NCBI GenBank assembly: GCA_020072785.1
Contig: JAIQGG010000001.1
Coordinates: 310,001 to 374,000 of the forward strand
Source of the DNA: Terriglobia bacterium
GTDB lineage: Bacteria; Acidobacteriota; Terriglobia; Acidiferrales; UBA7541
DNA: 64,000 nucleotides
Reading direction: 5' to 3'
Positions 4,875 to 51,528 of this stretch are shown here, piece after piece. The position numbers and the translations under genes are program-made. Within the stretch, counting starts at the first letter, position 1. Every line of letters begins with the position of its first letter. A model generated the notes under the pieces. The model was not told where the DNA came from and ran no database searches. It saw only the letters and a list, made by a program, of their open reading frames with translations.

Positions 4875-4969
4875 GGTTCACTCCAGTACCGCGGCATGGC
4901 GCAGGTTTCCGGCAGACCCGGGAGCATACCACAGGAGGAAGCGCGCCGGTGGCCGTAGAGGCGCAGGTC

Positions 4970-4978: not shown

Positions 4979-5028
4979 GATAAGTGTTCGCCTGCAGTAA
5001 ATCGACAAACAGACGGGAGTTCCTTTCG

Positions 5029-5057
5029 GGCTGCTCGTTGTTGAAGCAGCCTTTTTT
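5029..5057 (+). terminator. Terminator-like hairpin in the typA leader (possible attenuator)
   Basis: GGCTGCT and AGCAGCC form a perfect 7-bp stem with a 9-nt loop, followed directly by TTTTTT. It lies after the promoter at 4970-4978 and 24 nt before the typA start, so transcripts must pass it to reach the gene. Either it is an attenuator, or the roughly 70-nt product is a small RNA with read-through into typA. A terminator for the minus-strand gene is excluded, because that gene starts at 4874 and runs away from this site. Confidence 0.7.
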
Positions 5058-5080
5058 GTTTGGAAACTGAAGATCAAGAC

Positions 5081-6913: not shown

Positions 6914-7098
6914 GCGAGTCCGGGGGGACAGACACTTGTCCTGGCCTGCCCCTTCCGGGACATGGTTCACTGGCTCGCCAGCGCAGGTCAGCCTGTAGGC
7001 AGACGAGATGTGGAATCTCCCACAACCCTCCCCCAAGCGTTTGAGTGAGATGGCGCAGGAGACGGAAGCCAGCGGCCCGCAGTCAATTCGAAGTACTT

Positions 7099-7104
7099 TA
7101 TAAT
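7099..7104 (+). promoter_or_regulatory. Candidate -10 element upstream of the DUF302 gene
   Basis: A perfect TATAAT lies 85 nt before the DUF302 start in an otherwise gene-free 276-nt spacer. No convincing -35 box is present, so the call rests on the hexamer and its position. Confidence 0.45.
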
Positions 7105-7189
7105 CTGTAAGTTACATGTTCATTCCCGATGCTGACTTGGTATTTCGCATGCATCTCCCAACGAGGGGGGGCCGAGTCAGGAGTGTCGT

Positions 7190-7633
7190 ATGGAGAAAGC
7201 CATGAGCCATGCTCTGGACTATACCGTAGTGACCAACAAATCTTTTGCCGATGCGGTACGCGCGGTCGAGCAGAAAGCCGTGGAAAACGGTTTTCGCGTG
7301 CTGCACGTGCATGACTTCGCCGCCATGCTCGGCGAAAAAGGCTTTGCGCGCGAGCCGCTGACCATCGTGGAGATCTGCAACGCGCGTTACGCCAGCGAGG
7401 TGTTGAAGAAAGATGTGCGCACCGCGCTGCTGCTTCCCTGTCCGGTGGCCGTGTTCGTGGAAAACGGCAAAACCTGCATCAGCACCATGCTTCCCAGCAC
7501 CATGGCCGATTTCTTCCCCGAGAAGGGCATTGCGGAAGTGGCTTTCGCGGTGGAAGAAACCGTGCGTAAGATCGTGGACGAAGCGAAAGCCGAGCCCCAC
7601 GAGCTTGTCTCCCGCGCCCAGCCAGCGCCCTGA
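7190..7633 (+). CDS. DUF302 domain protein
   Basis: 147 aa, a single DUF302 domain over almost the whole length. The pattern is typical: an N-terminal strand and helix (FADAVRAVEQKAVENGF), then an EICNARYASEVL segment, then a core ending in LLPCPVAVFVENGK. DUF302 proteins are small soluble alpha/beta proteins of unknown function, sometimes linked to redox or sulfur/heme stress. Two ATGs are possible, 7190 and 7202. The first has CAGGAG 8 nt upstream and is chosen; the second has GGAGAAA ahead of it. It stands as a single gene with a candidate promoter at 7099. Confidence 0.85.
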   Translation: MEKAMSHALDYTVVTNKSFADAVRAVEQKAVENGFRVLHVHDFAAMLGEKGFAREPLTIVEICNARYASEVLKKDVRTALLLPCPVAVFVENGKTCISTMLPSTMADFFPEKGIAEVAFAVEETVRKIVDEAKAEPHELVSRAQPAP

Positions 7634-7818
7634 GAGGGAACCGCCCGGCCAATTGCCGGGAAAACCCGGGCGCCGCGCTAGAATCGGGCTGCGGAAATCC
7701 TGAGAGGAAAGAACTCGCTGTACGGCTTCAGCTCCTGAAGTCTCCAAGTTTGGCGCATTGTTACTTCGAGCAGGTATAGAGGTAACCGTCGCGGACCTGG
7801 TGTAGAGTCTTAGGTTCC

Positions 7819-8778
7819 ATGCGGCATCACGCTCCACCTCAGTCGCCCGGTTCGCCCCGCTTCCGCGGGATTGGCACCTATTCCCGCTTGCCGCAGCTGG
7901 CCGCGGAGGAGCGCGCGGATTTCGGCATCATCGGCGTGCCCTTCGATCTGGGCGCCAGCTTCCGCAACGGCCAGCGCTTCGGCCCGGTGGCGGTGCGCGA
8001 AGCCTCGCGCCTGGTGCGCCTGGCGCATCCCTATCACTGGATCGACATCTACGAATTCCTGAGCGGCGGCGACTACGGTGATGCGCCGGTCTATCCCGCC
8101 GATCTGGCGCAGAGCATCGCCGCCATCGAGGAGTACGTGCGGCCGGTCGTGGCGGGCGGCACGGTGCCCATCGCGATCGGCGGAGACCACACCGTCTCCC
8201 TGCCGCTGCTGCGCGCAGTGGCCGCGGCTCACGACGAGCTGGCCCTGGTGCATTTCGACGCGCACACCGACACCGATGACGAGCTCTTCGGCTCCAAGGT
8301 TTGCCACGGCACGCCCTTCCGCCGCGCCCTCGAGGAAGGCCTGATCGATCCGAAGCATTCCATCCAGGTGGGCATTCGCGGCTCTACGGTGACCGCCGGG
8401 GAGATCGACGATTCGCGCGCCCTGGGCTTTGAGGTGATCGAAGCGCCGGAAATGTTTGCGCTAGGCCCGGCTGGCGTGGTCGAGCGCATTCTGGCGCGCG
8501 TGGGCAGCCGCAAGGCCTACCTCACCTTCGACGTGGATTTTCTGGACCCCGCCTATGCGCCGGGAACGGGCACACCGGAAGTGGGCGGTCCGGCGTCGCA
8601 CGAAGCGCTGGCCATGCTGCGCGGCCTGGGGGCCATTCCCTTCGTGGGCTTCGACGTGGTGGAGGTCCTGCCCGCCGCCGACCATGGGCAGATCACCGCG
8701 CTCCTTGCCGCCAACGTGATCTTCGAGTTCATCTCGCTCCTGGCGGTGCGCCGCCGCGCCGCCGGGCGCACCACCTGA
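7819..8778 (+). CDS. speB: Agmatinase/arginase-family ureohydrolase
   Basis: 319 aa. Ureohydrolases split a guanidino substrate (agmatine, arginine or relatives) into urea and an amine using two Mn ions. All metal-ligand motifs are visible: GGDHTVS (His), HFDAHTD (Asp, His, Asp) and FDVDFLDP (two Asp). The GTGTPEVGG segment after the last motif is typical of agmatinase-like members. Agmatinase, making putrescine, is the most likely activity, but guanidinobutyrase or proclavaminate amidinohydrolase-like activities cannot be excluded. No polyamine gene is adjacent. The ATG at 7819 is the only good start and lacks an obvious Shine-Dalgarno. Confidence 0.85.
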   Translation: MRHHAPPQSPGSPRFRGIGTYSRLPQLAAEERADFGIIGVPFDLGASFRNGQRFGPVAVREASRLVRLAHPYHWIDIYEFLSGGDYGDAPVYPADLAQSIAAIEEYVRPVVAGGTVPIAIGGDHTVSLPLLRAVAAAHDELALVHFDAHTDTDDELFGSKVCHGTPFRRALEEGLIDPKHSIQVGIRGSTVTAGEIDDSRALGFEVIEAPEMFALGPAGVVERILARVGSRKAYLTFDVDFLDPAYAPGTGTPEVGGPASHEALAMLRGLGAIPFVGFDVVEVLPAADHGQITALLAANVIFEFISLLAVRRRAAGRTT

Positions 8779-9029
8779 CGGCGAAATTGCCCACGCAGAT
8801 TGCTCCAGAGCATGTACTTTCCGGCGCGCTTTCACGCGGCTCGCTGTGTTTTCTCACGCAGCGATGCCCGTAGCTAGTACCTGTACTCGCAGAATAGCCC
8901 TTACCGTTTCAGTAACTTACACAGCCGGCGCCGGAAAGTATCTTTGGCTGCTCGCCTGCATTATTAAAATAGCTCGCTTGCATTTTTGTGATTATTTTCG
9001 GTGCCAGACGCCCGGAAGAAGGAGCGGCC

Positions 9030-9317
9030 ATGCCGGTCAAGGAAGCCTACTTGGAGCGCGTCGTCGGCGAAGTGGAGAAGCTGGCGGCCAAGGTCGCGCA
9101 CCTGAAGAGCCGGCTGGCGCAGGAAGGCGGGGGTCTGCAACTCCGCTACTACTGGGAGTTGGAGTATCTGCGCAAGCGTTTTGCGGAGTTCAAGCAGCGC
9201 GTGGAAGAATTGGAAGAAGCCGATGAGTCGCGGTCCCAGGAACTCTTCGAATCCGCAGAGATAACCTGGAGAGACCTGGAACGCACCATCGAAGGGCTAT
9301 TGCGCGGGCTTCCCTGA
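9030..9317 (+). CDS. Small coiled-coil protein, function unknown
   Basis: 95 aa, rich in Glu, Lys, Arg and Leu, with heptad-like spacing through most of its length (VEKLAAKVAHLKSRL, then RFAEFKQRVEELEEA). It has no Cys, no signal peptide and no membrane segment, so a cytoplasmic helical dimer is likely. The start at 9030 is chosen because AAGGAG (9019-9024) lies 5 nt upstream; the earlier GTG at 8988 has no such site. It is followed 46 nt later by a 46-residue basic protein with an equally strong RBS, and a terminator closes the pair, so they are probably one transcript. Confidence 0.8.
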   Translation: MPVKEAYLERVVGEVEKLAAKVAHLKSRLAQEGGGLQLRYYWELEYLRKRFAEFKQRVEELEEADESRSQELFESAEITWRDLERTIEGLLRGLP

Positions 9318-9363
9318 CGCGGCGGCGCGTGCGGCGCCTGGCAGAGCCGGGAAGGAGGATGCC

Positions 9364-9504
9364 ATGAAAAAGACAGGAAAGAGCGGTCTGGGGCATCTGC
9401 AGAAAATGAAGAAGCAGGAGCGCCAAGTTCTGGCGTCAAAGATTCACATGGAGACGCAGGGCCGTCCGCGTACCGCAAAGCGGCCTCACCGCCGTATGGC
9501 GTGA
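9364..9504 (+). CDS. Very small basic protein (46 aa), function unknown
   Basis: This short ORF is supported by a near-perfect Shine-Dalgarno, AAGGAGG at 9352-9358, 5 nt before the ATG, and by a strong terminator 22 nt after its stop. The product starts MKKTGKSGLGHLQKMKKQER and is about one third Lys, Arg and His with almost no acidic residues, which suggests nucleic-acid or ribosome binding (inference). It probably shares a transcript with the coiled-coil gene just upstream. I do not recognise the family. Confidence 0.7.
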   Translation: MKKTGKSGLGHLQKMKKQERQVLASKIHMETQGRPRTAKRPHRRMA

Positions 9505-9525
9505 CAGAAAACAGAGCGACTCCGA

Positions 9526-9564
9526 AAGCGGGACCTGCCGGTGCGGGTCCCGCTTCTGCTTTTT
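9526..9564 (+). terminator. Intrinsic terminator after the two small genes
   Basis: AAGCGGGACC and GGTCCCGCTT form a perfect 10-bp stem with a 10-nt loop, followed by CTGC and TTTTT. It ends the 9030-9504 transcript. Confidence 0.85.
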
Positions 9565-9711
9565 GGGACTGCCTGTTTCCGCCGCCGCTCCCCCGCCTCG
9601 CAAAAAGTCCGCGCGGACACAGACAGGCCGCGGCGAATGCACTAGAATCACTGTGCCGCCGCGGCGGACGCAACACCGCCGGCCGGCAACTCCCTCGCGA
9701 GGCGCACCGTC

Positions 9712-10563
9712 ATGTTCAAAGAAGAGATGCTGAAGGGCAGGGCAGTCTTTCTCACCGGAGGCGGCACGGGCCTCGGAAAGTCCATGGCGCTGCGGCTGGC
9801 CGGATTGGGGGCGCGGCTGTTCGTGGTGGGGCGGCGCGAAGAGCCGCTGCGCGAAACCTGCGAAGAGATCCGCCGCGCGGGGGGCGTGGCGAGCTACGCC
9901 ATCTGCGACGTGCGCGATTACTCCGCGGTGGAAGCCGCCGCCGGCGCCGCGGAGGAGCAGTTCGGCCGCATCGACACGCTCGTCAACGGCGCTGCGGGCA
10001 ACTTCATCGCCCGCACGGAGAAGCTCACGCCGAACGCCTTCAACGCCGTGGTGGGCATCGTGCTCCACGGCACCTTTCACTGCACGCAGGTCTTCGGCAA
10101 GCGCTGGATCGCCGCCAAGCAGCCCGGCAACGTTCTGAATATCGTCACCACCTATGCCGCGGCCAATTGCGGCTCGGGCTTCATCGTGCCGTCGGCGTGC
10201 GCCAAGGCCGGGGTGCTGGCGATGACCACTTCGCTGGCGGTGGAATGGGCGAAATACCGCATCCGGGTGAACGCCATCGCCCCGGGACCCTTCCCGACCG
10301 AGGGGGCCTGGTCGCGGCTGATGCCCTCGAAACAGTTCGAAGAACACGCCATCGAAAAGCATCCCATGAAGCGCTTCGGGCGCCACGAGGAGCTGGCCAA
10401 TCTGGCGGCCTTCCTCCTGAGCGACATGGCCGAATACATCAACGGGGAATGCGTGGTGATCGACGGCGCACAGTGGCTGCGCGGCGCCGGGGAATTCAAC
10501 GACCTGCTCGTGCTCCCCGAAGCCGCCTGGGAAGCCATGGAAGCGGCGCGCGCGAAAAAGTAG
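9712..10563 (+). CDS. SDR oxidoreductase, 2,4-dienoyl-CoA reductase-like
   Basis: 283 aa. A Rossmann NAD(P)-binding motif TGGGTGLGKS (residues 15-24) and a VNGAAGNF segment are typical of the short-chain dehydrogenase branch that includes peroxisomal/mitochondrial 2,4-dienoyl-CoA reductase and trans-2-enoyl-CoA reductase. The usual catalytic Tyr of YxxxK is missing: the site reads S161-A-C-A-K165. This substitution is also known in animal dienoyl-CoA reductases, so it supports the assignment rather than inactivity. The likely role is reduction of unsaturated acyl-CoA in fatty-acid breakdown. A TAGAAT at 9643-9648 may be its -10 box. It converges with the archease gene, the stops only 12 nt apart. 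Confidence 0.8.
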   Translation: MFKEEMLKGRAVFLTGGGTGLGKSMALRLAGLGARLFVVGRREEPLRETCEEIRRAGGVASYAICDVRDYSAVEAAAGAAEEQFGRIDTLVNGAAGNFIARTEKLTPNAFNAVVGIVLHGTFHCTQVFGKRWIAAKQPGNVLNIVTTYAAANCGSGFIVPSACAKAGVLAMTTSLAVEWAKYRIRVNAIAPGPFPTEGAWSRLMPSKQFEEHAIEKHPMKRFGRHEELANLAAFLLSDMAEYINGECVVIDGAQWLRGAGEFNDLLVLPEAAWEAMEAARAKK

Positions 10564-10575
10564 GCTGGCCGCGCC

Positions 10576-10998
10576 TCACAGGTCCACGAAAACCTGGGCG
10601 CGCCAGCCTTCCGCGGTCTGCTCCACGAAGAGCTGGTGAAACGTCACGGCTTTGATGTGCGTGTTCATCTCGTGCCGAGCCCGGTCGAAAGGCTCGCCGT
10701 AGGCCGTGCCATGCACGCGGGCCGGCTCGAGCGCGGTCACATCGGCGCGGCGAAAGACCAGGCGCTCGGCCTCCGCCACGGCCAGCAGCTCCGCCAGCCA
10801 GGCGTACAGCAGCGTCTCGTTGTCGCTGCCCGTGGTTTCGATCTCCCGCGATTCCCGCTCCTCCACCGTGGCCAATTCGCAAGTCAGAGAAAAAAGCGCC
10901 AGCGCCGCATTCTCGAACAGCTCCTCGCGCGTCTTCCCGTAGGCGCGGAATCCGATGTCCGCGGGGTGCTCGAGAATCTCGAACGGTGTTTTCACCAT
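10576..10998 (-). CDS. Archease
   Basis: 140 aa, matching the family length. Archeases are small acidic proteins that activate the RNA ligase RtcB, helping guanylylation and multiple turnover in RNA repair or tRNA splicing. Diagnostic features: an N-terminal FEILEHPADIGFRAYG segment with the conserved His and Asp, the central EAERLVFRRADV region, and the C-terminal HMN-type sequence HEMNTHIKAVTFHQL followed by a strand ending in VFVDL. No rtcB gene is visible in this window, so its partner must lie elsewhere. A -10 box ends 6 nt before the ATG, so the mRNA is probably leaderless. Confidence 0.93.
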   Translation of the reverse strand: MVKTPFEILEHPADIGFRAYGKTREELFENAALALFSLTCELATVEERESREIETTGSDNETLLYAWLAELLAVAEAERLVFRRADVTALEPARVHGTAYGEPFDRARHEMNTHIKAVTFHQLFVEQTAEGWRAQVFVDL

Positions 10999-11004
10999 AC
11001 TTCG

Positions 11005-11010
11005 ATTCTA
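11005..11010 (-). promoter_or_regulatory. -10 box of the archease gene (leaderless start)
   Basis: On the minus strand TAGAAT is followed by CGAAGT and then the ATG of the archease gene. Transcription would start at or next to the A of the start codon, and no Shine-Dalgarno is present. Confidence 0.55.
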
Positions 11011-11078
11011 GTCCCTGAAGGGCGCGAGAGATGCGAGTTTTGAGACGCGTGCAGCCACTTCGGTATCAATTACGTTGA

Positions 11079-11294
11079 CTACGCAATCTGTCGATTGAGG
11101 TGATATTTTCCACGTCCAACGCGGACAAATAACTCCGTTGTCTGTTTGTTGCCGACGGCATGCTTCCCGAGAAATGTGTGATACGTTCCTTCTGCCCACC
11201 CTGGGCAAGCTCGCTTTACCATTGCGGCGTCGAACGGCTGTGCGAGCTTTCCGGAACGAACTGCGGCGTAAATATCGGACCCGAACTTTTTCAT
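11079..11294 (-). CDS. Small basic protein (71 aa), function unknown
   Basis: The predicted protein is basic, with a hydrophobic periodicity consistent with a compact three-helix or winged-helix-like fold: a helix around DIYAAVRSGKL, a turn with FDAAMVKRACPGW, then a C-terminal GRGKYHL hairpin. This layout looks like a small DNA-binding or structural domain, but I cannot name the family. Its codon use is less GC-biased than the flanking housekeeping genes, like the other genes of the 11.0-13.5 kb patch. It reads in the same direction as the next two genes. Confidence 0.6.
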   Translation of the reverse strand: MKKFGSDIYAAVRSGKLAQPFDAAMVKRACPGWAEGTYHTFLGKHAVGNKQTTELFVRVGRGKYHLNRQIA

Positions 11295-11348
11295 AATATC
11301 ACCCCAACGTGTTTTCTTACGCCATGCTTTCCAGTACGATCCAACGCA

Positions 11349-11795
11349 TCATTTGCAGGGGTAAGCCTCCTGAAGCGCCAGCAAGACCAACAATGCCGCA
11401 TGGTCACGTAGGTTCTTCGGGTTCTCGCGTAGATACTTCACCACAATTCGAACCACCTGCGGCGTCGGCATGAAACCTTCCTTTGGAAAGCAAATCAACG
11501 GCGACGAAAAATGGAGTCGGGCTTTCTCCGCAGCTTCCGTCTCGGCGTATCCATCAACGACGCCGAGAATGTAGCCAGTGCAGTGGGAGGCGTCCACGAA
11601 TTCCAAGTCGGTTAGCGTTGTGTCCCCGTCGATGGCGCGCATAGCTTGTTTGCAGTCGTGAAGCAATTCATTCCCCGTGGGCATGTCTTGGTCCACTGTG
11701 GGTTTCTGGGCGGCTTTCGTTGACCCTAAATTCGCGGATAGAAACAACTGGACGAACAGCACCATCCCAACTATTGCACTTTGTACGTGTCGCAT
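11349..11795 (-). CDS. Rap1a/Tai-domain secreted protein
   Basis: 148 aa. A signal peptide covers about residues 1-29. The mature part shows the Rap1a/Tai pattern: a first Cys in LLHDC, a second in the CTGYILGVVDGY block, a third in ICFPKEG, then the motif PQVVRIVVKYLRENP and a closing YPC. The founding members are periplasmic immunity proteins against type VI secretion amidases. Orphan copies without a secretion system are frequent in soil bacteria, and no T6SS or amidase gene is visible here. The four Cys suggest two disulfides. An actual immunity role is not shown. Confidence 0.8.
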   Translation of the reverse strand: MRHVQSAIVGMVLFVQLFLSANLGSTKAAQKPTVDQDMPTGNELLHDCKQAMRAIDGDTTLTDLEFVDASHCTGYILGVVDGYAETEAAEKARLHFSSPLICFPKEGFMPTPQVVRIVVKYLRENPKNLRDHAALLVLLALQEAYPCK

Positions 11796-11819
11796 TTAAC
11801 GCTCCCGTGCTCGCGGTCG

Positions 11820-12299
11820 TCAGTGATGGTGGACGAACCGATGCCATCGCTCTCGCAACTTCCAATACCAGCTTACTCTCTGAGGGTCGATTGCTAGTTC
11901 AAAAAGCAAGTTGGCGTGCTTTCTATCAAAGGTACACTCAGGACCAAAGGACCGTTTTATTAGCGCGTCCAATTCTTTTTTCTCATTGTCATTTTTAACC
12001 GTTTTCATTCTTTCAGTGACGGCATCTTTTATACGGGAAAGTGATTCTATTGCCTCTAAGGATTCTAGATTCGTGCGCTTGCCGTCCGGTGAAAGACTAT
12101 CGGCGTGCATTATCCTAAGTACATTATCAATGTCTTCTGCTGGAATTCTTTCAATGCCCTCGTTCGGCATCCAACGGACTTCCAAGTGCTCCCGCGTGTG
12201 ATTCAATACAAAGCCGTTCTTCTTAAAACCTAACGTGCAAACGTCGCCGCGCTTCCAAGGGTGCTTGCGTGGGTCAAGCGGTGGCTGCGATATTGTCAT
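11820..12299 (-). CDS. Uncharacterised protein of the accessory patch (159 aa)
   Basis: No signal peptide or membrane segment. The N-terminal third looks like a small beta-barrel (WKRGDVCTLGF, then HLEVRWMPNEGIERIPAEDI), similar in outline to SH3/Tudor-like modules. This is followed by a long charged helical region (about residues 75-120). The C-terminus is aromatic and basic (WYWKLRERWHRF). The gene is clearly lower in GC than its neighbours and uses more A/T-ending codons, a sign of different origin. It runs divergently from the 12394 membrane-protein gene. I do not recognise the family. Confidence 0.65.
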   Translation of the reverse strand: MTISQPPLDPRKHPWKRGDVCTLGFKKNGFVLNHTREHLEVRWMPNEGIERIPAEDIDNVLRIMHADSLSPDGKRTNLESLEAIESLSRIKDAVTERMKTVKNDNEKKELDALIKRSFGPECTFDRKHANLLFELAIDPQRVSWYWKLRERWHRFVHHH

Positions 12300-12364
12300 C
12301 GGACTCCGATCAGTCTACCGTTATGGCACGTAAACACAATTACAAAAAGTCGGGCCATTTGCCA

Positions 12365-12373
12365 TGATAGAAT
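12365..12373 (+). promoter_or_regulatory. Candidate extended -10 element before the 12394 gene
   Basis: TGATAGAAT has the TGn extension and a 5/6 match to TATAAT. It lies 20 nt before the ATG at 12394 and overlaps the alternative ATG at 12364, which argues against that earlier start. Confidence 0.45.
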
Positions 12374-12393
12374 CCGCCCACCGGGGGAAACGA

Positions 12394-12990
12394 ATGACGA
12401 AACCAAACAAGCCCACGATCTCCATGATCTTACTTTATCTGGCGATTTTGTTTGGCGGCGTCCTTCTCGTAGCTTGGGTGCTGTCGGAGATTTTAAGTCT
12501 GCCCCCCAAGGCCACATACCAACTCACGAAGGCATCTCTCGACGCTGCGGCGGCGGTCGCGGTTCTAGGTTTTGCGTTTGCCCGCCAAAGGCTCAATACG
12601 AAGGTAACGTTGATCGCCACAGGATTGCTTTCGCTGGGTCTGACTCTTTGGGTCCTTTCGATTGGGCATCAATCGCCCACAGGTGCGTCCACAATCTCGA
12701 CCGTCGATCAAGATGCTTACGTCGTGAGCACAGAACGCTTTGACGAAAATGGGAAACCTGTGTGGACGCTCGCTCACGGAAAACAACTTTATACCATCAA
12801 CTATGACAACACTTGCACTCAGCAAACCGCCGCCGCTGATTGTGACCACGCCCTCGACGTCGGACAATCATTTGGAGGATCGAATGTGTCCTTCCACGGC
12901 GACGGCCATGTAATTTCCCTCGTGGAATCCAAGGCCGACAAAGACTTAACGCACTTCTATCAGGTAATGCGAGTTGATGCGGTTCCCTAA
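12394..12990 (+). CDS. Small membrane protein with extracytoplasmic domain, function unknown
   Basis: 198 aa. Two or three hydrophobic segments in the first 85 residues are followed by a soluble, probably outside-facing C-terminal domain with two Cys (CTQQTAAADC) that could form a disulfide. The start at 12394 is preferred over 12364 because GGGGGAAA lies just upstream and because a promoter-like TGATAGAAT overlaps the earlier ATG. A/T-richer codon use matches the accessory patch. The next gene begins 28 nt after its stop, so they may be co-transcribed. No family recognised. Confidence 0.65.
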   Translation: MTKPNKPTISMILLYLAILFGGVLLVAWVLSEILSLPPKATYQLTKASLDAAAAVAVLGFAFARQRLNTKVTLIATGLLSLGLTLWVLSIGHQSPTGASTISTVDQDAYVVSTERFDENGKPVWTLAHGKQLYTINYDNTCTQQTAAADCDHALDVGQSFGGSNVSFHGDGHVISLVESKADKDLTHFYQVMRVDAVP

Positions 12991-13018
12991 CATTTGCCAA
13001 AAGGAGACGACAACCAAC

Positions 13019-13210
13019 ATGCCCAAAGTTTATTTGCATGCCACTGACATCAATAAATTTGAGTGGGTTGACAAGCCGGAAAATGCCACTGCGGATGCTA
13101 AGGAATCCATGGAGGTGACTTTGAAGCAATTCAAGGGTGCCGAATTGGAGCGTGCTCCTAAAAAGACCCTACAACACGAATCGGGTTGGATTATCAGCAA
13201 GGAGGCGTAA
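13019..13210 (+). CDS. Small soluble protein (63 aa), function unknown
   Basis: The ATG at 13019 is preferred over 12974 because it follows AAGGAG (13001-13006, 12 nt upstream) and does not overlap the preceding gene. The product is hydrophilic, with a Lys/Glu-rich middle and no membrane segment or Cys. It is the last gene of the lower-GC patch. The remaining 825 nt up to thrS hold no convincing gene. Confidence 0.55.
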   Translation: MPKVYLHATDINKFEWVDKPENATADAKESMEVTLKQFKGAELERAPKKTLQHESGWIISKEA

Positions 13211-13339
13211 AGAAAAAGATCCGAGGAGAACGGCCTGCCCGAATTTATCGATTAGATACTTCTGGTACTTAAATCCTATTCGGGTAAACCAACCCCACCG
13301 CGGGTGGCACATCCTTTGCGAGCGGAAGCGAGAGGGTGG

Positions 13340-13372
13340 CCCATCTTTTCGCGGTTTTTGCGAAAAGGTGGG
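13340..13372. repeat. Palindromic intergenic element (13-bp stem)
   Basis: The arms CCCATCTTTTCGC and GCGAAAAGGTGGG pair over 13 positions with one G-T wobble, around a 7-nt T-rich loop. The pattern of CCCATC plus T/C-rich arm, GC loop edge and matching arm plus GGTGGG resembles dispersed elements common between genes in Acidobacteriaceae (recalled, not searched). No gene ends at the right distance for a simple terminator. Confidence 0.6.
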
Positions 13373-13762
13373 GATTTTGACTTTTTGTGCCACAAGGACA
13401 ACTCTCCTCACATACTTTTCCACAACCCATACCAATACCGCTAATAATTCCTTTGAAAGTAAGTTATTTATAGGCTATCATTCCCCGTGAATCGCGATCT
13501 TCACACTCGCCGCCAAGCCCACCATCGCCCTTCTGCCCCGTCTCCCTGCTCCGCCCCGCATAGCCAAATCGCGCTCTTTTCGCTCTTTTGCGTCCAGCAC
13601 GTTTCTGTAAGTCTTGTGTTTGCCACTCTTACGCACTTCCAAAAACAGGAGCGCGCCGCAACTCTCCTGCAATCAATCCAATACGCACTCTTTGCAAAAA
13701 CACCGGGGGTGGGCAGGGAGTCCTCCCCATTTCGTCACTCCCCACTCGCCACGATCTCCTTT

Positions 13763-13879
13763 ATATTCTGCAGTTACAAAAATTCCACCTGCAACCCTTG
13801 CGGAATCAGCAGTTCCAAAACACACGACTTCATCCCCTTTGGAATCTGCAGTTCCAAGAAAACAGGGGGGTGGGGGTCA
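13763..13879. repeat. Diverged 39-bp tandem repeat, about three copies
   Basis: The cores ATTCTGCAGTTACAA (13765), GGAATCAGCAGTTCCAA (13802) and GGAATCTGCAGTTCCAA (13841) recur with an exact period of 39 bp. The last two cores can each form a short GGAA/TTCC hairpin around the loop. The flanks of copies 1 and 2 also match loosely. The third copy runs into a G-rich tract. Confidence 0.65.
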
Positions 13880-13954
13880 TTCTGTTTACTTGCCCCGATC
13901 ATCCCAGTCACGAGTCGCAACTCACGAATCACGAGTCACTTTCCCGGACTCGCC

Positions 13955-13983
13955 TTGACCCTGCCCGGTCCCGCCGATAAGCT
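13955..13983 (+). promoter_or_regulatory. Likely sigma-70 promoter of thrS
   Basis: TTGACC (13955-13960) and TAAGCT (13978-13983) are separated by exactly 17 bp. The -35 box is 5/6 to consensus, the -10 box keeps the key T-A-n-n-n-T. The expected start near 13990 gives a leader of about 46 nt. Confidence 0.55.
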
Positions 13984-14035
13984 AGTTGTTTCTCGCGCGG
14001 CTTGCCGGAGTTCGGCGGGCCGTTCCCAGGCGGAC

Positions 14036-16048
14036 ATGACCATGGATCAGATTCGCGTTACCTTGCCGGACGGAAAAGTGCACGAGGTGGCGAAGGGCAC
14101 GACTGCGGGGGAGATTGCCCGCAAGATCGGGCCGCGCCTGGCGGAAGCCGCGCTGGTCGCGCGGGTGACGCCGGCCACAGCGCCCGCGACGGGCGCCGCG
14201 AAAGCTCTGGCCGCGACCGGCACGGACGAGCCGGAGGCCGGCGACCTGGTGGACCTGCGGCGCCCGCTCGAGCAGGACGTCCGCCTGCAGATCCTCACGG
14301 AAAAAGATCCCGACGCGCTCTACGTTTTCCGCCACTCCGCGGCGCACCTGCTGGCCGCCGCGGTGATGGATCTCTATCCCGGCGTGAAGCTGGGCATCGG
14401 CCCGCCGGTGGAGAACGGCTTCTTCTACGAATTCCTGCGCGAGGAGCCGTTCACCCCGGACGACCTCGTCAAGATCGAAAAGAAAATGCACGAGCTGGCG
14501 GAGCAGGACATCCCCAACGAGCGCAAGCTGCTGCCCAAGGCCGAAGCGCTCGAGCTGTATAAGAAGACCAACCAGACCTTCAAGTGCCAGCTGGTCGAGG
14601 AAAAGGCCGAAGAGCCGATGGTCTCCTTCTACACCACGGGGAAATTCATCGACTTCTGCCGCGGACCGCACATTCCTTCCACCAAGCGCATCACGGCCTT
14701 CAAGCTGATGAGCGTGGCCGGAGCCTACTGGAAGGGCCAGGAAGGCAACGCGCAGTTGCAGCGCATCTACGGCGCGTGCTTTTTCACGCAGAAGGACCTC
14801 GACGATTACCTGCACCGCCTGGAAGAGGCCAAGCGCCGCGACCACCGCAAGCTGGGCCCGGAGCTGGACTTCTTCAGCATCCAGGAGGAGGCCGGGCCGG
14901 GGCTGATCTTCTGGCACCCCAAGGGCGGCCTGGTGCGCAAGATCATCGAGGACTGGCTGCGCGAGGAGCTGCTGAAGCGCGGCTACGACCTGGTGTTCAC
15001 GCCGCACATCATGCGCCTGGATCTGTGGAAGACCAGCGGGCACACCAATTTTTACAAAGAGAACATGTTCGGCGCGGTGGAGGTCGAAAAGGCCGAATAC
15101 CAGCTCAAGCCCATGAACTGCCCGGGCCACATCCTCATTTACAAGACCAAGCTGAAGAGCTATCGCGACCTGCCGGTGCGCCTGGCTGAGCTCGGCACGG
15201 TCTACCGCTACGAACGCAGCGGCGTGCTGCACGGCCTGCTGCGCGTGCGCGGCTTTACGCAGGACGATGCGCACATCTTCTGCACGCCCTCGCAGATCGA
15301 GGGGGAAGTCGAAGCCTGCGTGGACTTCGCCTTCGCGGTGATGAAAAATTTCGGCTTCGACAAATTCGAGGTCGAGCTCTCCGACTGGGACGCCACACAC
15401 CCGGAAAACTACGCCGGCAAGCCCGAGGACTGGCACCGCGCTACCGCCGCGCTCGCCGGCACCCTGAAGCGCATGAACATTCCCTTCAAGCGTATGGAGG
15501 GCGAAGCCGCGTTCTACGGGCCGAAGATCGACGTCAAGCTGATCGACGCCATCGGGCGGCCCTGGCAGCTCACCACCGTGCAGTTCGATTTCAACCTCCC
15601 GGCGCGCTTCGGCCTGGAATACGTCGGCGAAGACGGCGCGCGGCACCAGCCCCTGATGGTGCACCGCGCCCTGCTCGGCTCGGTCGAACGCTTCTTCGGC
15701 ATCCTCATCGAGCACTACGCCGGGGCGTTTCCGGTGTGGCTCGCGCCGGTGCAGGTGGAAGTCTGCCCGGTGAGCGAAAAGGTCAACGACTACGCCAGGC
15801 ACGTGACGGAAACCCTGAAGCACCATGGCCTGCGCGTGCATCTCGACGACCGCAACGACAAGCTCCCGGCAAAGATCCGCGACGCGCAGATGCAGAAGAT
15901 TCCCTACATGCTGGTGGTGGGCGCGAAGGAAGCGGAAGCCGGCACGGTCTCCGTGCGCCACCGCAGCAAGGGCGACCTCGGCCCGCGCCCGCTCGCCGAA
16001 TTCGTCGCGGCCCTGCAGAAGGAAGCGGAAACCCGCGCCGCGCAATAG
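14036..16048 (+). CDS. thrS: Threonine--tRNA ligase
   Basis: 670 aa. Class II synthetase that charges tRNA-Thr. Domain order is canonical: N-terminal TGS domain (about 1-90), editing/SAD domain with HSAAH (about 100) and the FCRGPHIPST motif (about 213), catalytic core with class II motif 1, motif 2 (VYRYERSGVLHGLLRVRGFT) and motif 3, and a C-terminal anticodon-binding domain (VEVCPVSEK onward). The TGS domain carries an Ala/Thr-rich insertion around residues 40-62, which explains the length slightly above the 640 usual. The start is ATG 14036, or 14042 two codons later. It opens the thrS-infC-rpmI-rplT-pheST region. Confidence 0.97.
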   Translation: MTMDQIRVTLPDGKVHEVAKGTTAGEIARKIGPRLAEAALVARVTPATAPATGAAKALAATGTDEPEAGDLVDLRRPLEQDVRLQILTEKDPDALYVFRHSAAHLLAAAVMDLYPGVKLGIGPPVENGFFYEFLREEPFTPDDLVKIEKKMHELAEQDIPNERKLLPKAEALELYKKTNQTFKCQLVEEKAEEPMVSFYTTGKFIDFCRGPHIPSTKRITAFKLMSVAGAYWKGQEGNAQLQRIYGACFFTQKDLDDYLHRLEEAKRRDHRKLGPELDFFSIQEEAGPGLIFWHPKGGLVRKIIEDWLREELLKRGYDLVFTPHIMRLDLWKTSGHTNFYKENMFGAVEVEKAEYQLKPMNCPGHILIYKTKLKSYRDLPVRLAELGTVYRYERSGVLHGLLRVRGFTQDDAHIFCTPSQIEGEVEACVDFAFAVMKNFGFDKFEVELSDWDATHPENYAGKPEDWHRATAALAGTLKRMNIPFKRMEGEAAFYGPKIDVKLIDAIGRPWQLTTVQFDFNLPARFGLEYVGEDGARHQPLMVHRALLGSVERFFGILIEHYAGAFPVWLAPVQVEVCPVSEKVNDYARHVTETLKHHGLRVHLDDRNDKLPAKIRDAQMQKIPYMLVVGAKEAEAGTVSVRHRSKGDLGPRPLAEFVAALQKEAETRAAQ

Positions 16049-44770: not shown

Positions 44771-45282
44771 CCCGTTTTTTCACGCCACGGAAACCCCTGG
44801 GGGCGCAGCACTGCCGTGCCCGTCTTTGGTTTTGCTTATTCTGAGAACTCGCGGGAAAGAGGAGCAGGGGCAGTGCAGCGCGAAGCGTTCTTCCGGCGCA
44901 CCAGAGGTCATGAAAAATGGGGGAGTTTCGAACCGGCCCAGCCCTCAATCCCCTAAAAGGGATCTCGGCTCGCCTCCCCCACAATCACTGGTTGCACGTC
45001 AAAAGCCACTGGTAATACCTTTACTGTCAATTAGTTACAGATTAGAAGCCGCGTAAAAACGCGCCACCCCCACGAAAATTTACCCGCTGCCTTTTTCTGG
45101 CAGTTATTCCCGCCTTTTCCGCCGCCTTTGCCCTTTCTCGGACTTCCTCCCGCCCCTTGCCGCGTCAGACGCGCTGGGCCGCGGCTTGACCGCGCTCCCC
45201 GCGCTTGCTACCGTGAAGAGTTATTCTGGCCGCAGTCTATCCACTGTGCGCCGGAGCTCCTGTGGAGGGGCACACGAGTTCT
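44771..45282. other. Gene-free spacer between the cox operon and uvrA
   Basis: 512 nt without a credible coding frame. It contains GCACTGCC ... GGCAGTGC (about 44809 and 44871), which can pair over a long distance, then an A/T-richer stretch (45014-45050) that could hold the uvrA promoter. No clean -35/-10 pair or SOS box is recognised. Confidence 0.5.
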
Positions 45283-48180
45283 ATGGGCTTGACCAAACTG
45301 GTTGTGCGCGGCGCGCGTCAGCACAACCTCAAGAACATCAGCCTCGAAATCCCGCGCAACTCCCTGACGGTCATTACCGGCCTCTCCGGTTCCGGGAAAT
45401 CCTCGCTGGCCTTTGACACCATCTACGCCGAAGGCCAGCGCCGCTACGTCGAATCCCTCTCTGCCTACGCCCGCCAGTTCCTCGACCAAATGGAGCGCCC
45501 CGACGTGGACGTGATCGAGGGTCTCTCTCCGGCCATCGCCATCGAGCAGAAAACCACCTCCCGCTCTCCGCGCTCCACCGTTGGCACCGTCACCGAGATT
45601 TACGATTACTTGCGCGTCGTCTACAATTCCATCGGCGTCCCCCATTGTCCCGCCTGCGGCCACCCCATCGCCCGCCAGACCAGCGAGCAGATCGTCCAGG
45701 CCATCCTCAGCGGCGACCTCTGCCAGCCCGACGACCGCATCATGATCCTCGCGCCCGTCGTGCGCGGGCGCAAAGGCGCTTACCGCAAGGAGCTGGAAAA
45801 ACTGGCGCAAGACGGCTACGTGCGCGTGCGCATCGACGGCGAGCTCTATCCCCTCGATGTTCCGCCCAGCCTCGACAAGCGCAAGAACCATACCATCGAA
45901 GTCGTCGTGGACCGCCTGCTCATCAAGCCGGGCATTGCCGCGCGCCTCGAGCAATCCATCGCCACGGCCCTCAAGCTCGCCCAGGGCCTGGTCACCGTGG
46001 CCATCGTCGCCGGCAAGGAGCACGTCTTCTCCGAAAAGCTGGCCTGCCCCGATTGCGGCATCTCCGTCCCCCAGCCCGAGCCGCGCTTCTTCAGCTTCAA
46101 TTCACCCTACGGCGCCTGCCCTGCCTGCAACGGTCTCGGCGCGAAGTTCGATTTCGATCCCGCCAAAGTCATCACCGATTGGACGCGCCCGCTCTTCGAC
46201 GGCGGCCTCGGCCCCGGCGCAGGTTCCGCCATCCTCAAGCGCACCCTCGAGCTCGCCGCCTACGCCCACGGCTTCCATCTCGATACACCCTTCGACAAAC
46301 TTTCCGCGCGCATCCAGAACCTGCTGCTCTACGGCTACCCGCCCGCCAGGGGCTCCTCCGGCTCCGCAGCCGGCGTCGAGCCGCCGCCGCGCTCCGCAAA
46401 GAACGCCAAGACCGAAAAGGGTTTCCGCTTTCAGGGCATCCTTCCGTTCCTCGAGCGCAATTTCGAAGAGTCCGGCTCGGATGCTTACCGCGAGTGGATG
46501 ACGCACTACATGACCTCCAAGGTGTGCGCCGTCTGCCAGGGCCGCCGCCTGCGCCCGGAGAGCCTGGCCGTGAAACTCGCCGGCTGGTCTATCGCCGATT
46601 TCACCGCTTTCTCGCTCGCCGCCGCGCGCCCCGCCGTGGATGCCATCCTCGCGCAGCTCACTCCACGCCAGCGCGAGATCGCCGCGCGCCCCCTCGGCGA
46701 AATCGCCGAGCGCATCGACTTTCTTCTCGACGTCGGCCTCGGCTATCTCAGCCTCGACCGCTCCGCTGCCACCCTCTCCGGCGGCGAAGCCCAGCGCATC
46801 CGCCTGGCTACGCAGATCGGCTCGCGCCTCCGCGGCGTTCTTTACGTCCTCGACGAGCCCTCCATCGGCCTGCACGCCCGCGACAACGATCGCCTCCTCC
46901 ATTCTCTCGCCCAGCTCCGCGACCTCGGCAACACCGTTCTCGTCGTCGAGCACGACGAGGAGACCATCCGCCGCGCCGATTTCGTCGTCGACCTTGGCCC
47001 CGGCGCAGGCAACGCCGGCGGCTATCTCGTGGCTCAGGGCCAGCCCGCGCAGATCGCCGCCGTCCCGGAATCGCTCACCGGGCGCTATCTTTCCGGCGCG
47101 GCGCGCATTCCTGTCCCGCAGAAGCGCCGCAGCCCCAACGGCAAGTCCCTCCAGATCCTCGGCGCCGCCGCCAACAACCTCAAGCATCTCGACGTCACCA
47201 TTCCCCTGGGCCTCTTCACCGTGGTTACCGGCGTCTCCGGCTCCGGAAAATCCACGCTGGTCAACGACATTCTCTACCGCGCCCTGGCCCAGAAACTCTA
47301 CCGTTCCCAGGACCCGCCCGGCGCGCACCGCATGATCCTCGGCATCGAGCACCTCGACAAAGTCATCGAGATCGACCAGGCGCCCATCGGCCGCACCCCG
47401 CGCTCCAATCCCGCCACTTACACCGGCGTCTTCGCGCCCATCCGCGAGCTTTTCTCCATGCTCCCGGAATCGCGCGAGCGCGGTTACCGCCCCGGCCGCT
47501 TCAGCTTCAACGTCAAGGGCGGCCGCTGCGAAGCCTGCCAGGGCGACGGCCTGCGCCGCATCGAGATGAATTTCCTTCCCGACGTCTATGTGCTGTGCGA
47601 AGTCTGCCGCGGCCGCCGCTACAATTCCGAGACCCTCGCCGTCCGCTTCAAGAACCACTCCATCTCGGACATCCTCAATCTGCCCATCAACGAAGCCTTG
47701 CCGCTCCTTGAAAACATCCCGCAGATCCGCCAGAAGCTCGAAACCCTCGTGGAAGTCGGCCTCGGCTACGTCCAGCTCGGCCAGTCCTCCACCACGCTCT
47801 CCGGCGGCGAAGCCCAGCGCATCAAGCTGGCCCGCGAGCTTGCCCGCCGCCAGACCGGCCGCACCCTCTACATCCTCGACGAGCCCACCACCGGCCTGCA
47901 CTTCGACGACGTGCGCAAGCTCCTCGCCGTCTTGCAGCGCCTCGTGGACCTCGGCAATACCGTCCTCATCATCGAGCACCACCTCGACGTCATCAAACAG
48001 GCCGACTGGCTCCTCGACCTCGGCCCCGAAGGCGGCGAAGCCGGCGGCCGCATCGTCGCCCAGGGCACTCCCGAACAGGTTGCCCGCGTCAAAAAATCCC
48101 ACACCGGCCAGGCCCTCACCCGCTTCCTCGGCCTCGCCCCCGCCTCCAACGGCAACGGCCACCAGGTCATCGGCAAATGA
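45283..48180 (+). CDS. uvrA: UvrABC system protein A
   Basis: 965 aa from the ATG at 45283; GTG 45262 is possible but lies within the GGAGGGG that best serves as RBS. UvrA is the damage-recognising ATPase of nucleotide excision repair. Two ABC modules: Walker [13 protein letters not shown] (about 34-45) and [13 protein letters not shown], two LSGGEAQRI signatures, two zinc modules (CPACG ... CPDCG ... CPACNG and CEACQG ... CEVCRG). A short low-complexity insertion rich in Ser/Ala/Pro lies near residue 355-375, within the DNA-binding region. The protein is otherwise standard. Confidence 0.97.
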
Positions 48181-48364: not shown

Positions 48365-49354
48365 ATGAGCCTCTACTCCATTTCGCCGCTCGCCCTCGAC
48401 GCCATCGCCACCTATCCGCTGGCCTCGCGCAAGAGCAAGGTCAGCGTCCGTGACTTCGCCCGCCCCGTCTCCGGCTCCGCCTCGCTCAAGAATTTTCTCG
48501 ATTCGCTCCCCAACCTCCTTGCCGCCGGCGATCTCCGCGGCCTCCTTGCCGCCATGCACCGCGCGCGCCAGAAGCGCAAGACCATCCTCTGGGGCCTCGG
48601 CGGCCACGTCATCAAGGCCGGCCTCGGCCCCGTTCTCATCGACCTCATCGGCCGCGGCTTCGTCTCCGGCATCGCCATGAACGGCGCTGCCCTCATCCAC
48701 GATTTCGAAATCGCCCTCGTCGGCAACACTTCCGAAGACGTGGACGCCGCCCTCGGCGCAGGCAAATTCGGCATGGCCGCGGAAACCGGCCAGTACATCA
48801 ACGACATCGCCCGGGACGCCGCGCGCAGCGGCATCGGCTACGGCGAAGCCGCCGGCAAGCTCCTCACTGGTCGCCGCCTGCGCCCGCGCTACGCCGGCTC
48901 GAGCGTTCTCGCCGCCGCCTGCCGCGCCCGCATCCCTGTCACCATCCATCTCGCCATCGGCACGGACATCCCGCACATGCATCCTGCCGCCGACGGCGCC
49001 GCCCTCGGCGCCGCCACGCACCACGATTTCCGCCTCTTCTGCGCGCTGGTGAAGCGCATGCACCCCGGCGGCGTCTATCTCAACTGGGGCTCCGCCGTGC
49101 TCCTCCCCGAAGTCTTCCTGAAGGCCGTCTCCGTCGTGCGCAATCTGGGCGTGCCCCTCCGCCCCATCACCACCGCCAATTTCGACTTTATCCAGCACTA
49201 CCGCCCGTTGCAGAATGTCGTGAAGCGCCCGACCGCGCCGGAACGTGGCCGCCGCGGCCTGGAATCCCGCGGCTACGCCGTCACCGGCCACCACGAATTG
49301 CTTCTGCCGCTCGTGGCCGCGGCGCTCGCAGCCGGCTGGCCGGCAGGACGTTGA
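48365..49354 (+). CDS. Deoxyhypusine-synthase-like protein, function unknown
   Basis: 329 aa, soluble. The core resembles the NAD-binding fold of deoxyhypusine synthases: GGHVIKAGLGPVLIDLIG, then AMNGAALIHDFEIALVGNTSEDV and a later HLAIGTDIPHMHP block, with LNWGSAVLLPEVFLKA near the C-terminus. Eukaryotic and archaeal enzymes modify eIF5A, which bacteria do not have, so the bacterial relatives must do something else. The catalytic Lys of true DHS is not obvious. Start: ATG at 48365 (GTG 48353 possible). No operon partner; the CPBP gene follows after 48 nt. Confidence 0.6.
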   Translation: MSLYSISPLALDAIATYPLASRKSKVSVRDFARPVSGSASLKNFLDSLPNLLAAGDLRGLLAAMHRARQKRKTILWGLGGHVIKAGLGPVLIDLIGRGFVSGIAMNGAALIHDFEIALVGNTSEDVDAALGAGKFGMAAETGQYINDIARDAARSGIGYGEAAGKLLTGRRLRPRYAGSSVLAAACRARIPVTIHLAIGTDIPHMHPAADGAALGAATHHDFRLFCALVKRMHPGGVYLNWGSAVLLPEVFLKAVSVVRNLGVPLRPITTANFDFIQHYRPLQNVVKRPTAPERGRRGLESRGYAVTGHHELLLPLVAAALAAGWPAGR

Positions 49355-49399
49355 CCGCTTGCGGTCACACTTAGCGAAGACCGCTTGCGGTCACACTTA
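49353..49399. repeat. Two 21-bp direct repeats, each a palindrome
   Basis: The motif GACCGCTTGCGGTCACACTTA occurs at 49353-49373 and 49379-49399, 26 bp apart (21 bases; its key part is the GACCGC/GCGGTC inverted pair around TT). They fill the spacer in front of the CPBP gene, where a Shine-Dalgarno would be expected but is not seen. Regulator binding site or dispersed element. Confidence 0.7.
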
Positions 49400-49402
49400 A
49401 CT

Positions 49403-50263
49403 ATGACCCCTTTCGAAAACGATCCTCTGAATCCGGACATTTCTTCCGGCGGTGCTCCGGCCGCCCCCGGCGGCGCGCCTCCGGCCCCGCCGTTCTCTTC
49501 GCTTCCCGAAGATCTGCGCATCTCCTGGTCCTGGTCGCATTTCGCCGTTTTTCTGCTCTTCAGCGTCGGCAACTTTGTGATCACGCAAGTTGCGCTCATG
49601 ACCTATCTCACCTCTTACCGCCACATGACCATCAAGGAGATTCAGAGCGTGCCCCCGTTTCTGGCTCCCTATCTCGTGGCCTTGCAGGTGGTCTTCTTCG
49701 CTCTCGAGCTGCTCTTCCTCTACGTCACGCTCGCTGTCCTTCCGGACGTGCCTTTCTGGCGCTCCGTGGGCTGGCGCCGGCTGCCGCCAGGCCCCTCGCG
49801 CGGCCGCGGCTGGCTCTACTTTTTCTCCGGCTGCGGCCTGGCGATCTGTGTGGCGGTGGCCAGCCTGGGCATCCACCCCAAGGAAAAATTGCCCATCCAG
49901 GAGCTTTTCAAGGACCGCACCAGCACCGCGCTGCTGATGCTGATGGCCGTCCTCGTCGCCCCGCTGATCGAAGAGACCGTCTTTCGCGGCTATCTCTACC
50001 CCCTGTTTGCGCGCAGCTTTGGCGTGCCCGCGGGCATCGGCATCACCGGCGTCCTCTTCGGCATCCTGCACGGCGCGCAACTGGGCTGGACGCGCGAGCT
50101 GGTGGTCATCATGAGCCTGGTGGGAATGGTCTTCACCTACGGACGCGCGCGGACCCGTACCGTCCTCGGCAGTTACCTGCTGCACCTCGGCTACAACTCC
50201 ATGATCAGCGTCACCATGCTGATCGCCACCCGCGGTTTGCAGCACTTTCCCCCGGCCACCTGA
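49403..50263 (+). CDS. CPBP family intramembrane metalloprotease
   Basis: 286 aa with about eight transmembrane helices after a Pro/Ala-rich cytoplasmic N-terminus. The CPBP/Rce1 (ABI) signature is visible: EETVFRGYL (EExxxR, about residue 194), FGILHG (FxxxH) and the last-motif HLGYN. Members are membrane proteases involved in CAAX processing in eukaryotes and bacteriocin self-immunity or unknown processes in bacteria. ATG at 49403 chosen over the TTG at 49385, which lies inside the second direct repeat. Confidence 0.88.
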   Translation: MTPFENDPLNPDISSGGAPAAPGGAPPAPPFSSLPEDLRISWSWSHFAVFLLFSVGNFVITQVALMTYLTSYRHMTIKEIQSVPPFLAPYLVALQVVFFALELLFLYVTLAVLPDVPFWRSVGWRRLPPGPSRGRGWLYFFSGCGLAICVAVASLGIHPKEKLPIQELFKDRTSTALLMLMAVLVAPLIEETVFRGYLYPLFARSFGVPAGIGITGVLFGILHGAQLGWTRELVVIMSLVGMVFTYGRARTRTVLGSYLLHLGYNSMISVTMLIATRGLQHFPPAT

Positions 50264-50431: not shown

Positions 50432-50481
50432 TTCTCTTGGAATTGTCCGTAGGCTGCACAGATCGCGAGGAAACTGCACGC

Positions 50482-51528
50482 ATGTACGTTGCACAGCCCA
50501 TTGCCTGGACCGACCGCGGTGTGGTCATGCTCGATCAGCGCCGCCTTCCCGCGGAGGAGATCAGCTACACCTACACCGACTACCGCGAAGTCGCCAAAGC
50601 CATTCGCGAGATGGTCATTCGCGGCGCACCGGCCATCGGCGTGGCCGCGGCCATGGGCGTGGCCCTCGGCGTCCTCCACTCCCGCGCGGCCTCGCTCGAA
50701 GCTCTGCGCGCGGAGTTCTCCGGAATCTGTGACACCCTCGCCCAGACCCGCCCCACCGCCGTGGACCTCTTCTGGGCCCTCGAGCGCATGAAGCGCCGCT
50801 TCGCCGAGCTTGCCGCTGGGACCTCGGACCTCGCCAAAATCCGCCAGGCCCTCGTCGAGGAAGCCAAGCAGGTGCATCTCGAGAAGAAAGCTACCGATGA
50901 AGCCATCGGCCGCTTCGGCGCGGAATTCATGCCTGCCTCAGGCCAGGTCATGACCCAGTGCAACGCCGGCGCTCTGGCCACCGCCGGCATCGGCACGGCT
51001 CTCGGCGTCATCCGCGTCGCCTTTCAGCAGGGGAAGAAGCTGCACGTGCTGGTGCCGGAGACCCGCCCGTATCTGCAGGGAGCGCGCCTCACCGCCTGGG
51101 AGCTGCATCGCGGCGGCATCCCGCTCACGCTCATCACCGACAACATGGTCGGCCACTTCCTGAAGTCCGGCAAAGTCGGCGCGATCGTTACCGGCGCGGA
51201 CCGCATCGCCGCCAACGGCGACACCGCCAATAAGATCGGCACCTACCAGATCGCCGTCCTGGCCAGGGAAAACAACGTGCCCTTCTATATCGCCGCGCCC
51301 GTCTCCACCCTCGATCTCTCCATCCCCGACGGCAGCCACATCCCCATCGAAGAGCGCTCGGCCGCCGAAGTCACGCACATCCAGGGCGTGCGCATCGCCC
51401 CCGACGTCCACGCCGCGCACCCCGCCTTCGACGTCACTCCCGCACGCTACATCGCCGCCATCTTCACCGAGCGCGGCGTCGCCCGCGCCCCGTACAGCGA
51501 TTCCCTCCGCGCCCTCGCCGCCTCCTAG
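50482..51528 (+). CDS. mtnA: S-methyl-5-thioribose-1-phosphate isomerase
   Basis: 348 aa. Converts methylthioribose-1-phosphate to methylthioribulose-1-phosphate in the methionine salvage pathway. Conserved [13 protein letters not shown] (about 50-62), the catalytic Cys in [12 protein letters not shown] and the catalytic Asp in [11 protein letters not shown] followed by NKIGTYQ are all present. The eIF2B-alpha-like fold family includes ribose-1,5-bisphosphate isomerase, but this length and these motifs fit MtnA. ATG at 50482 with a GAGG site 11 nt upstream. Other mtn genes are not in the window. Confidence 0.94.

Follow-up and report, generated by a model that had tools for sequence, protein, structure and literature searches.

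Deoxyhypusine synthase (DHS) and ArgZ/AgrE enzymes work with a borrowed hydride: a bound cofactor of the nicotinamide type oxidises a C-H bond of the substrate, and the resulting intermediate is then re-reduced in the same active site. HldD, the ADP-L-glycero-D-manno-heptose 6-epimerase, is a short-chain dehydrogenase/reductase (SDR) that epimerises C6 by the same logic of oxidation and hydride return, in this case on an alcohol. In the 64,000-nt stretch of acidobacterial DNA analysed here (the window, taken at its full length), the gene at 48365-49354 (+), called F below, encodes a protein of the GSU2086 family with the DHS/ArgZ fold. Since DHS/AgrE and HldD all use transient oxidation with hydride return, we propose that F could be a hidden-redox 6-epimerase, that is, a soluble enzyme of ADP-heptose and lipopolysaccharide (LPS) inner-core synthesis that replaces HldD. 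This proposal, in which we infer the reaction, the substrate and the cofactor, draws on sequence comparisons and a structural model and is tentative, being rated slightly short of an even chance.

The open frame of F starts with ATG and codes for 329 amino acids plus a stop. It matches the NCBIfam profile NF052581 ("GSU2086 family") with 385.8 bits for a cut-off of 250, residues 9-319 covering positions 2-300 of the 301 of the profile, and is a full-length member of this family. In a collection of 84,980 species genomes, tblastn confirmed 158 relatives, of which the 80 best range from 94% to 53% identity; together with the NCBIfam match over residues 9-319, this indicates a real gene. A first reading of this DNA, referred to as the earlier note, had quoted the motifs GGHVIKAG, NGAALIHD and GTDIPHMHP and mentioned uncharacterised homologues in several bacterial phyla. 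All three motifs are present in the translation, two plasmid records outside the Acidobacteriota (Solidesulfovibrio and Chloroflexota) carry relatives with GSU2086 scores of 384-386 bits, and no biochemically characterised relative of F was found in the literature searched. The family already exists in NCBIfam with no function attached, and a function is proposed for it here; our open-access literature search found nothing tying the GSU2086 family to heptose epimerisation, and nothing joining deoxyhypusine synthase with heptose epimerase or with phosphoheptose isomerase. To follow the distribution of F, we used a phylum sample of 297 Acidobacteriota genomes (G-numbers, G000 being the window genome; f- and g-numbers are families and genera, L-numbers fetched regions or loci), of which 97 bear F and 200 count as F-negative, including G114 with a partial match of 153.7 bits that lies below the cut-off. 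F was absent above cut-off from 14 control genomes. The window genome (3.73 Mb, 98.9% complete) holds a single copy. Two above-cut-off copies each were seen in G005, G056, G180 and G202, and in G005 each copy adjoins its own gmhA-like gene.

The genome context of F points to LPS heptose synthesis. In 20 of the 97 F genomes, the sedoheptulose-7-phosphate isomerase gene gmhA (searched at E<=1e-15, and at 1e-10 in a second search) has the same orientation as F and is at most about 0.5 kb away; with the limit set at 4 kb the number rises to 24, spread over 13 GTDB families; by our own arithmetic, a random 8-kb span of a 4.5-Mb genome would contain gmhA by chance in roughly 0.2 genomes. The genome G160 carries gmhB - F - hldE - gmhA in one block, each gene named by NCBIfam and the stop of F overlapping the start of hldE. 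A heptosyltransferase II gene directly adjoins F in G177 and G105, and in G203 heptosyltransferase I and hldE-II are some 3 kb away from it. On the Solidesulfovibrio (Desulfovibrionaceae) plasmid L112, F stands between an hldE-like adenylyltransferase/kinase gene and a gmhA-like SIS gene, and on the Chloroflexota plasmid L113 the order is HAD - F - heptose-kinase-like - gmhA-like (SIS), at 9014-12444. In Geobacter, the NF052581 gene has the same neighbours: the available excerpt of PMC5585712 gives consecutive locus numbers to hldE (GSU2085), GSU2086 and gmhA (GSU2087) of Geobacter sulfurreducens, and similar scores for growth on electrodes in transposon sequencing (Tn-seq; hldE -3.1, GSU2086 -3.2, gmhA -3.7). 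As for the surroundings of the plasmid-borne copies, the L112 operon sits amid transketolase halves, a pseudaminate cytidylyltransferase gene and three radical SAM genes (2159-16037), probably a glycan cluster, and the L113 cluster adjoins sugar ABC transporter and Gfo/Idh genes.

The heptose pathway is otherwise largely present in F genomes. Thus, gmhA was detected in 95/97, the hldE kinase (E<=1e-40) in 92/97 and a waaF-like heptosyltransferase II (E<=1e-30) in 96/97, while among the 79 F genomes searched with TIGR02199 and TIGR00213 the hldE adenylyltransferase was found in 78 and a GmhB-like phosphatase in 66. In the window genome, waaF, gmhB and hldE-II are together on C5 (33188-36322) and gmhA is on C3. 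Since GmhA, kinase, GmhB-like phosphatase and adenylyltransferase are mostly present, that of HldD is the one known step still unaccounted for. Two candidates were set aside in the course of this analysis. F as a replacement for GmhB is unlikely because of the 66 genomes with GmhB-like genes. A divergent SDR gene 1.2 kb from gmhA in the window genome was considered as a hidden HldD; it scores 128 bits with TIGR02197 (cut-off 274.6) and is a TviC/GalE-type epimerase, and its rejection is not complete.

F and HldD are nearly mutually exclusive. HldD, searched at E<=1e-60 with every genome counted also exceeding the family cut-off, occurs in 76 of the 297 genomes: 3 genomes carry both, 94 F without HldD, 73 HldD without F and 127 neither of the two (one-sided Fisher test, 7.6e-12). 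Restricting the count to the 232 gmhA-positive genomes gives 3 with both, 92 with F only, 71 with HldD only and 66 with neither (Fisher 2.3e-17), and collapsing these to genera gives 2/68/19/39 in the same order (p 3.9e-6). HldD occurs in 3 of the 97 F genomes overall and in none of the 89 that carry gmhA, hldE kinase and waaF. The same pattern is visible at close range, with 8 F genomes, 11 HldD genomes, none with both and 1 with neither among the gmhA-positive members of family f21, whose genus g44 holds both states (F in G093 and G268; HldD in G035, G125, G141 and others). As a positional control, genomes with HldD (G285 and G163, for example) have its gene beside gmhA/hldE. The two proteins thus occur with the same gmhA/hldE genes, in the same proposed slot of the pathway and almost never in one genome, whereas F has no match to the HldD model: TIGR02197 is not among the 8 NCBIfam families that match F up to E 1.

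We then compared F with the described enzymes of its fold. The AlphaFold2 model, built on a 72-sequence alignment, has a mean pLDDT of 93.4 and a pTM of 0.90. Its best matches are AgrE 6lrf (Z 20.9, 221 residues aligned, 3.5 A), Pyrococcus horikoshii DHS 7cmc (chain 7cmc_D, Z 20.7, 269 residues, root-mean-square deviation 3.7 A), archaeal LOR/SDH 3c2q (Z 19.9) and human DHS (Z about 19.5), rows differing by less than 1 Z being treated as tied. Profile comparisons with hhalign agree, linking F to acidobacterial DHS-family paralogues (E 3e-8) and to acidobacterial TIGR00300-like paralogues (E 8e-9), and on these grounds F is a third branch of the DHS / ArgZ-AgrE superfamily. The DHS-type fold announced in the earlier note is therefore borne out, and no other fold came up among the best matches. 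The search with DHS and homospermidine synthase profiles that it had suggested returned matches that are weak and all below cut-off: the DHS, homospermidine synthase and ornithine cyclodeaminase models give 10-21 bits on one stretch around residues 35-150, with PF01916 at 20.3 bits on residues 63-119 only (cut-off 27), TIGR00321 at 17.7 bits (cut-off 304.25), both DHS matches being confined to residues 63-122, and TIGR00300 (ArgZ/AgrE/LOR-SDH) at 15.2 bits (cut-off 410.8). A weak DHS match recurs in 42 of 47 family members and a weak match to the C-terminal part of ArgZ in 40 of 47; judged by these profiles, the kinship to DHS is real but distant. F thus shares with DHS (PF01916, TIGR00321) a common fold that extends over some 270 residues (Z 19-21), and it has the same fold as the C-terminal ornithine cyclodeaminase of ArgZ/AgrE and archaeal LOR/SDH (TIGR00300, PF21570, 6lrf, 3c2q). 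The alignment with AgrE begins at residue 52 of F and about residue 470 of the AgrE chain, so F is devoid of the remainder of AgrE, and it also differs from ArgZ/AgrE by its heptose neighbours.

Two alignments of family members (A1, n=72; A2, n=47) were used to define the conserved positions, which are collected with the neighbouring genes in the table below. G79 and H81 of the GGHVIK loop are invariant in both alignments, and K84 is invariant in A1 and conserved in at least 90% of A2 (Arg in L113). In the model, a helix spans residues 279-290 at the position where DHS has its SWGK motif, which carries the catalytic lysine. SWGK is found in 0/72 sequences of A1 and 0/47 of A2, versus 9/9 true DHS-family paralogues. 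R280 and R288 of this helix are invariant in both alignments; N284 is invariant in A1 and conserved in at least 90% of A2. From the order of the structural elements, residues 279-289 would be the equivalent of the DHS lysine motif and R288 may replace the lysine. This suggestion leans on the absence of the motif and on the secondary-structure order, because global hhalign alignment of the C-terminal half of F is unreliable. Invariant basic residues (R22, H81, H112, K253, R280, R288 and H310) could bind a negatively charged sugar phosphate or nucleotide at the site that receives a polycationic amine in DHS. The proposed enzyme would oxidise C6 of the D-glycero-heptose to a ketone and return the hydride to the opposite face of the ketone, giving the epimer; its substrate would be ADP-heptose, or heptose phosphate before activation.

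The earlier note had suggested that F may use NAD and a polyamine, a reading considered here as that of a DHS or homospermidine synthase-like enzyme. The common fold and the weak DHS profile match speak for it, but SWGK is missing from all 72 sequences of A1, the score stays far under the TIGR00321 cut-off of 304, the same genome holds a separate full-length DHS-family gene (C2:1271723-1272643, 259.6 bits), and the neighbours are heptose genes, none of those scanned by family being named as a polyamine gene. Given the lack of SWGK in every aligned member and the profile scores, F is not a DHS, and on motif, scores and gene context we regard a polyamine activity as highly improbable and have dropped it. 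Of 99 genomes sampled in the phylum, 77 have a full-length DHS-family gene; the one of the window genome is a true DHS-family gene sitting in a bacterium. The agmatinase-family gene that the same note had pointed out is real (7819-8778 (+), TIGR01230 208.2 bits, cut-off 174.3); it lies 40 kb from F with nothing linking it to F, and the suggested connection was rejected. The polyamine reading was thus mostly wrong on function, yet it led to a sharper, testable proposal. Regarding the cofactor, the fold makes a dependence on NAD plausible, and the AgrE entry 6lrg is titled as a complex with NAD+. F might instead depend on the nickel-pincer nucleotide (NPN), as a LarA-like heptose epimerase built on the DHS fold, since NCBIfam names the sister family TIGR00300 NPN-dependent and the NPN synthesis gene LarE occurs in 58 of the 60 F genomes searched versus 54 of 80 chosen F-negative genomes (Fisher 9e-6, a figure confounded by other NPN users). 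This is improbable in our view: G160, which has the cleanest F operon, and G084 have no LarE, the AgrE title names NAD+, and LarE can be explained by the TIGR00300-like paralogue that many F genomes also hold or by LarA homologues, which occur in Acidobacteriota according to the part of PMC11770544 available. LarA-family NPN racemases and epimerases offer a chemical model of hidden-redox epimerisation; profile searches of F found no match to this family, and NPN dependence of F is putative. In the open-access literature searched, nothing joins ornithine cyclodeaminase with pincer or nickel-pincer nucleotide. LarE was observed about 7 kb from gmhA-F in G205 and G059.

A more serious contender, although we consider it unlikely, is that F performs another step of the heptose route, for example one adjacent to that of GmhA with sedoheptulose 7-phosphate or heptose 7-phosphate as the substrate, or that it produces another stereoisomer of heptose, the exclusion with HldD then reflecting two alternative core-sugar programmes. 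Here gmhA is the commonest heptose-gene partner (the 20 direct adjacencies given above) and no adenylyltransferase is among the listed neighbours in the Chloroflexota cluster, which therefore fits a reaction on heptose phosphate more readily than one on ADP-heptose and poses the question of a heptose-phosphate metabolism without nucleotide activation. The other known steps are, however, already occupied in most F genomes. Another conceivable view gives F a regulatory or otherwise unrelated role and sees its proximity to gmhA as an accident of history, due to a uvrA-gmhA-F order, as the window-clade copies, which stay beside uvrA with no gmhA between, might suggest. We find this quite improbable, because heptose linkage recurs in other phyla with other gene orders, including Geobacter in the excerpt of PMC5585712, and because an accident leaves the F-HldD exclusion unexplained. 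Several observations nevertheless weigh against replacement of HldD by F. F of the window genome is not beside gmhA (C3:307996-308439). Relatedness among genomes inflates the exclusion p-values, some sampled genomes are partly fragmented, and at the family level (both/F/HldD/neither, 3/37/7/16) p is only 0.022. Three f20 genomes (G023, G045 and G202) hold F and HldD together, which also favours another step for F; they have no hldE kinase match at E<=1e-40, an adenylyltransferase gene stands beside HldD in G023 and G045, and they possibly follow a different heptose route. Moreover, F and HldD are both missing from 36 genomes (e.g., G015, G018, G089 and G133) in which gmhA, the hldE kinase and waaF-like genes are present; hence there must be a third epimerase, or else D-glycero-heptose is used directly (D,D-heptose cores), as it might be in F genomes too. 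Lastly, polar effects within one operon could explain the equal Tn-seq scores in the Geobacter excerpt.

With these points weighed, replacement of HldD by F is still the explanation we prefer. It is possible, and we suggest with due caution, that the ADP-heptose epimerase step has been solved twice, the second time by the unrelated GSU2086 family, in which the DHS/ornithine-cyclodeaminase fold would have turned from amines to hidden-redox chemistry on a sugar alcohol, replacing HldD in much of the Acidobacteriota and in Geobacter-like bacteria, possibly with the nickel-pincer nucleotide as hydride carrier. If so, the LPS-core heptose pathway would be complete in a large part of the Acidobacteriota and, probably, in Geobacter, its last missing step being supplied, an unassigned NCBIfam family would gain a function, and a fold known from polyamine and ornithine chemistry would perform sugar epimerisation. 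As ADP-heptose isomers matter for innate immune sensing, knowing which isomer F-bearing bacteria make would be of wider use. A protein of the F type is easily mistaken for a DHS, a polyamine enzyme or a hypothetical protein, a likely misreading that is corrected here.

Table. Coordinates in the window of F, its conserved segments and the adjacent genes.
Feature	Position	Strand	Basis or remark
GSU2086-family gene (F), DHS/ArgZ-fold protein	48365..49354	+	NF052581 385.8 bits, AlphaFold2 model
GGHVIK, residues 79-84, first Rossmann loop	48599..48616	+	Alignments A1, A2
NGAALIHDFE, residues 106-115, aligned to DHS TTGGTIDHD stretch	48680..48709	+	G107, H112, D113, E115 invariant
IGTDIPHMHP, residues 198-207	48956..48985	+	G199, D201 invariant; H204, H206 in at least 90%
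NWGSAVLLPEVFLKA, residues 240-254	49082..49126	+	N240, G242, P248, E249, K253 invariant
YRPLQNVVKRP, residues 279-289, C-terminal helix at the place of DHS SWGK	49199..49231	+	Alignments, model
TGHHE, residues 307-311	49283..49297	+	G308, H310 invariant
uvrA (excinuclease ABC subunit A), upstream of F	45262..48180	+	By eye and clustering
CPBP-type intramembrane protease, downstream of F	49385..50263	+	No functional link seen
S-methyl-5-thioribose-1-phosphate isomerase (mtnA)	50437..51528	+	TIGR00512 407.9 bits, cut-off 279

In the window and its clade, the gene order is uvrA - F - CPBP protease - mtnA. A gene of the uvrA cluster was found at 51 of the 81 loci examined and mtnA at 41, the latter being a conserved neighbour of F only in the wider clade of the window; as it is mainly limited to this clade, the mtnA/CPBP context was dropped as a functional clue. 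Among 20 regions fetched, the order uvrA - gmhA - F appears in other acidobacterial families (L119, L123, L124 and L125), from which the window order most likely arose by loss of gmhA from between uvrA and F; L133 shows uvrA - F, and its uvrA-cluster member is named UvrA by family match. In the F tree, which has a midpoint root only, gmhA-linked copies are scattered and some of them branch early; the copy of the window is nested within those linked to uvrA. Further upstream of uvrA, the segment 40970-44770 (+) resembles by eye a cytochrome c oxidase operon.
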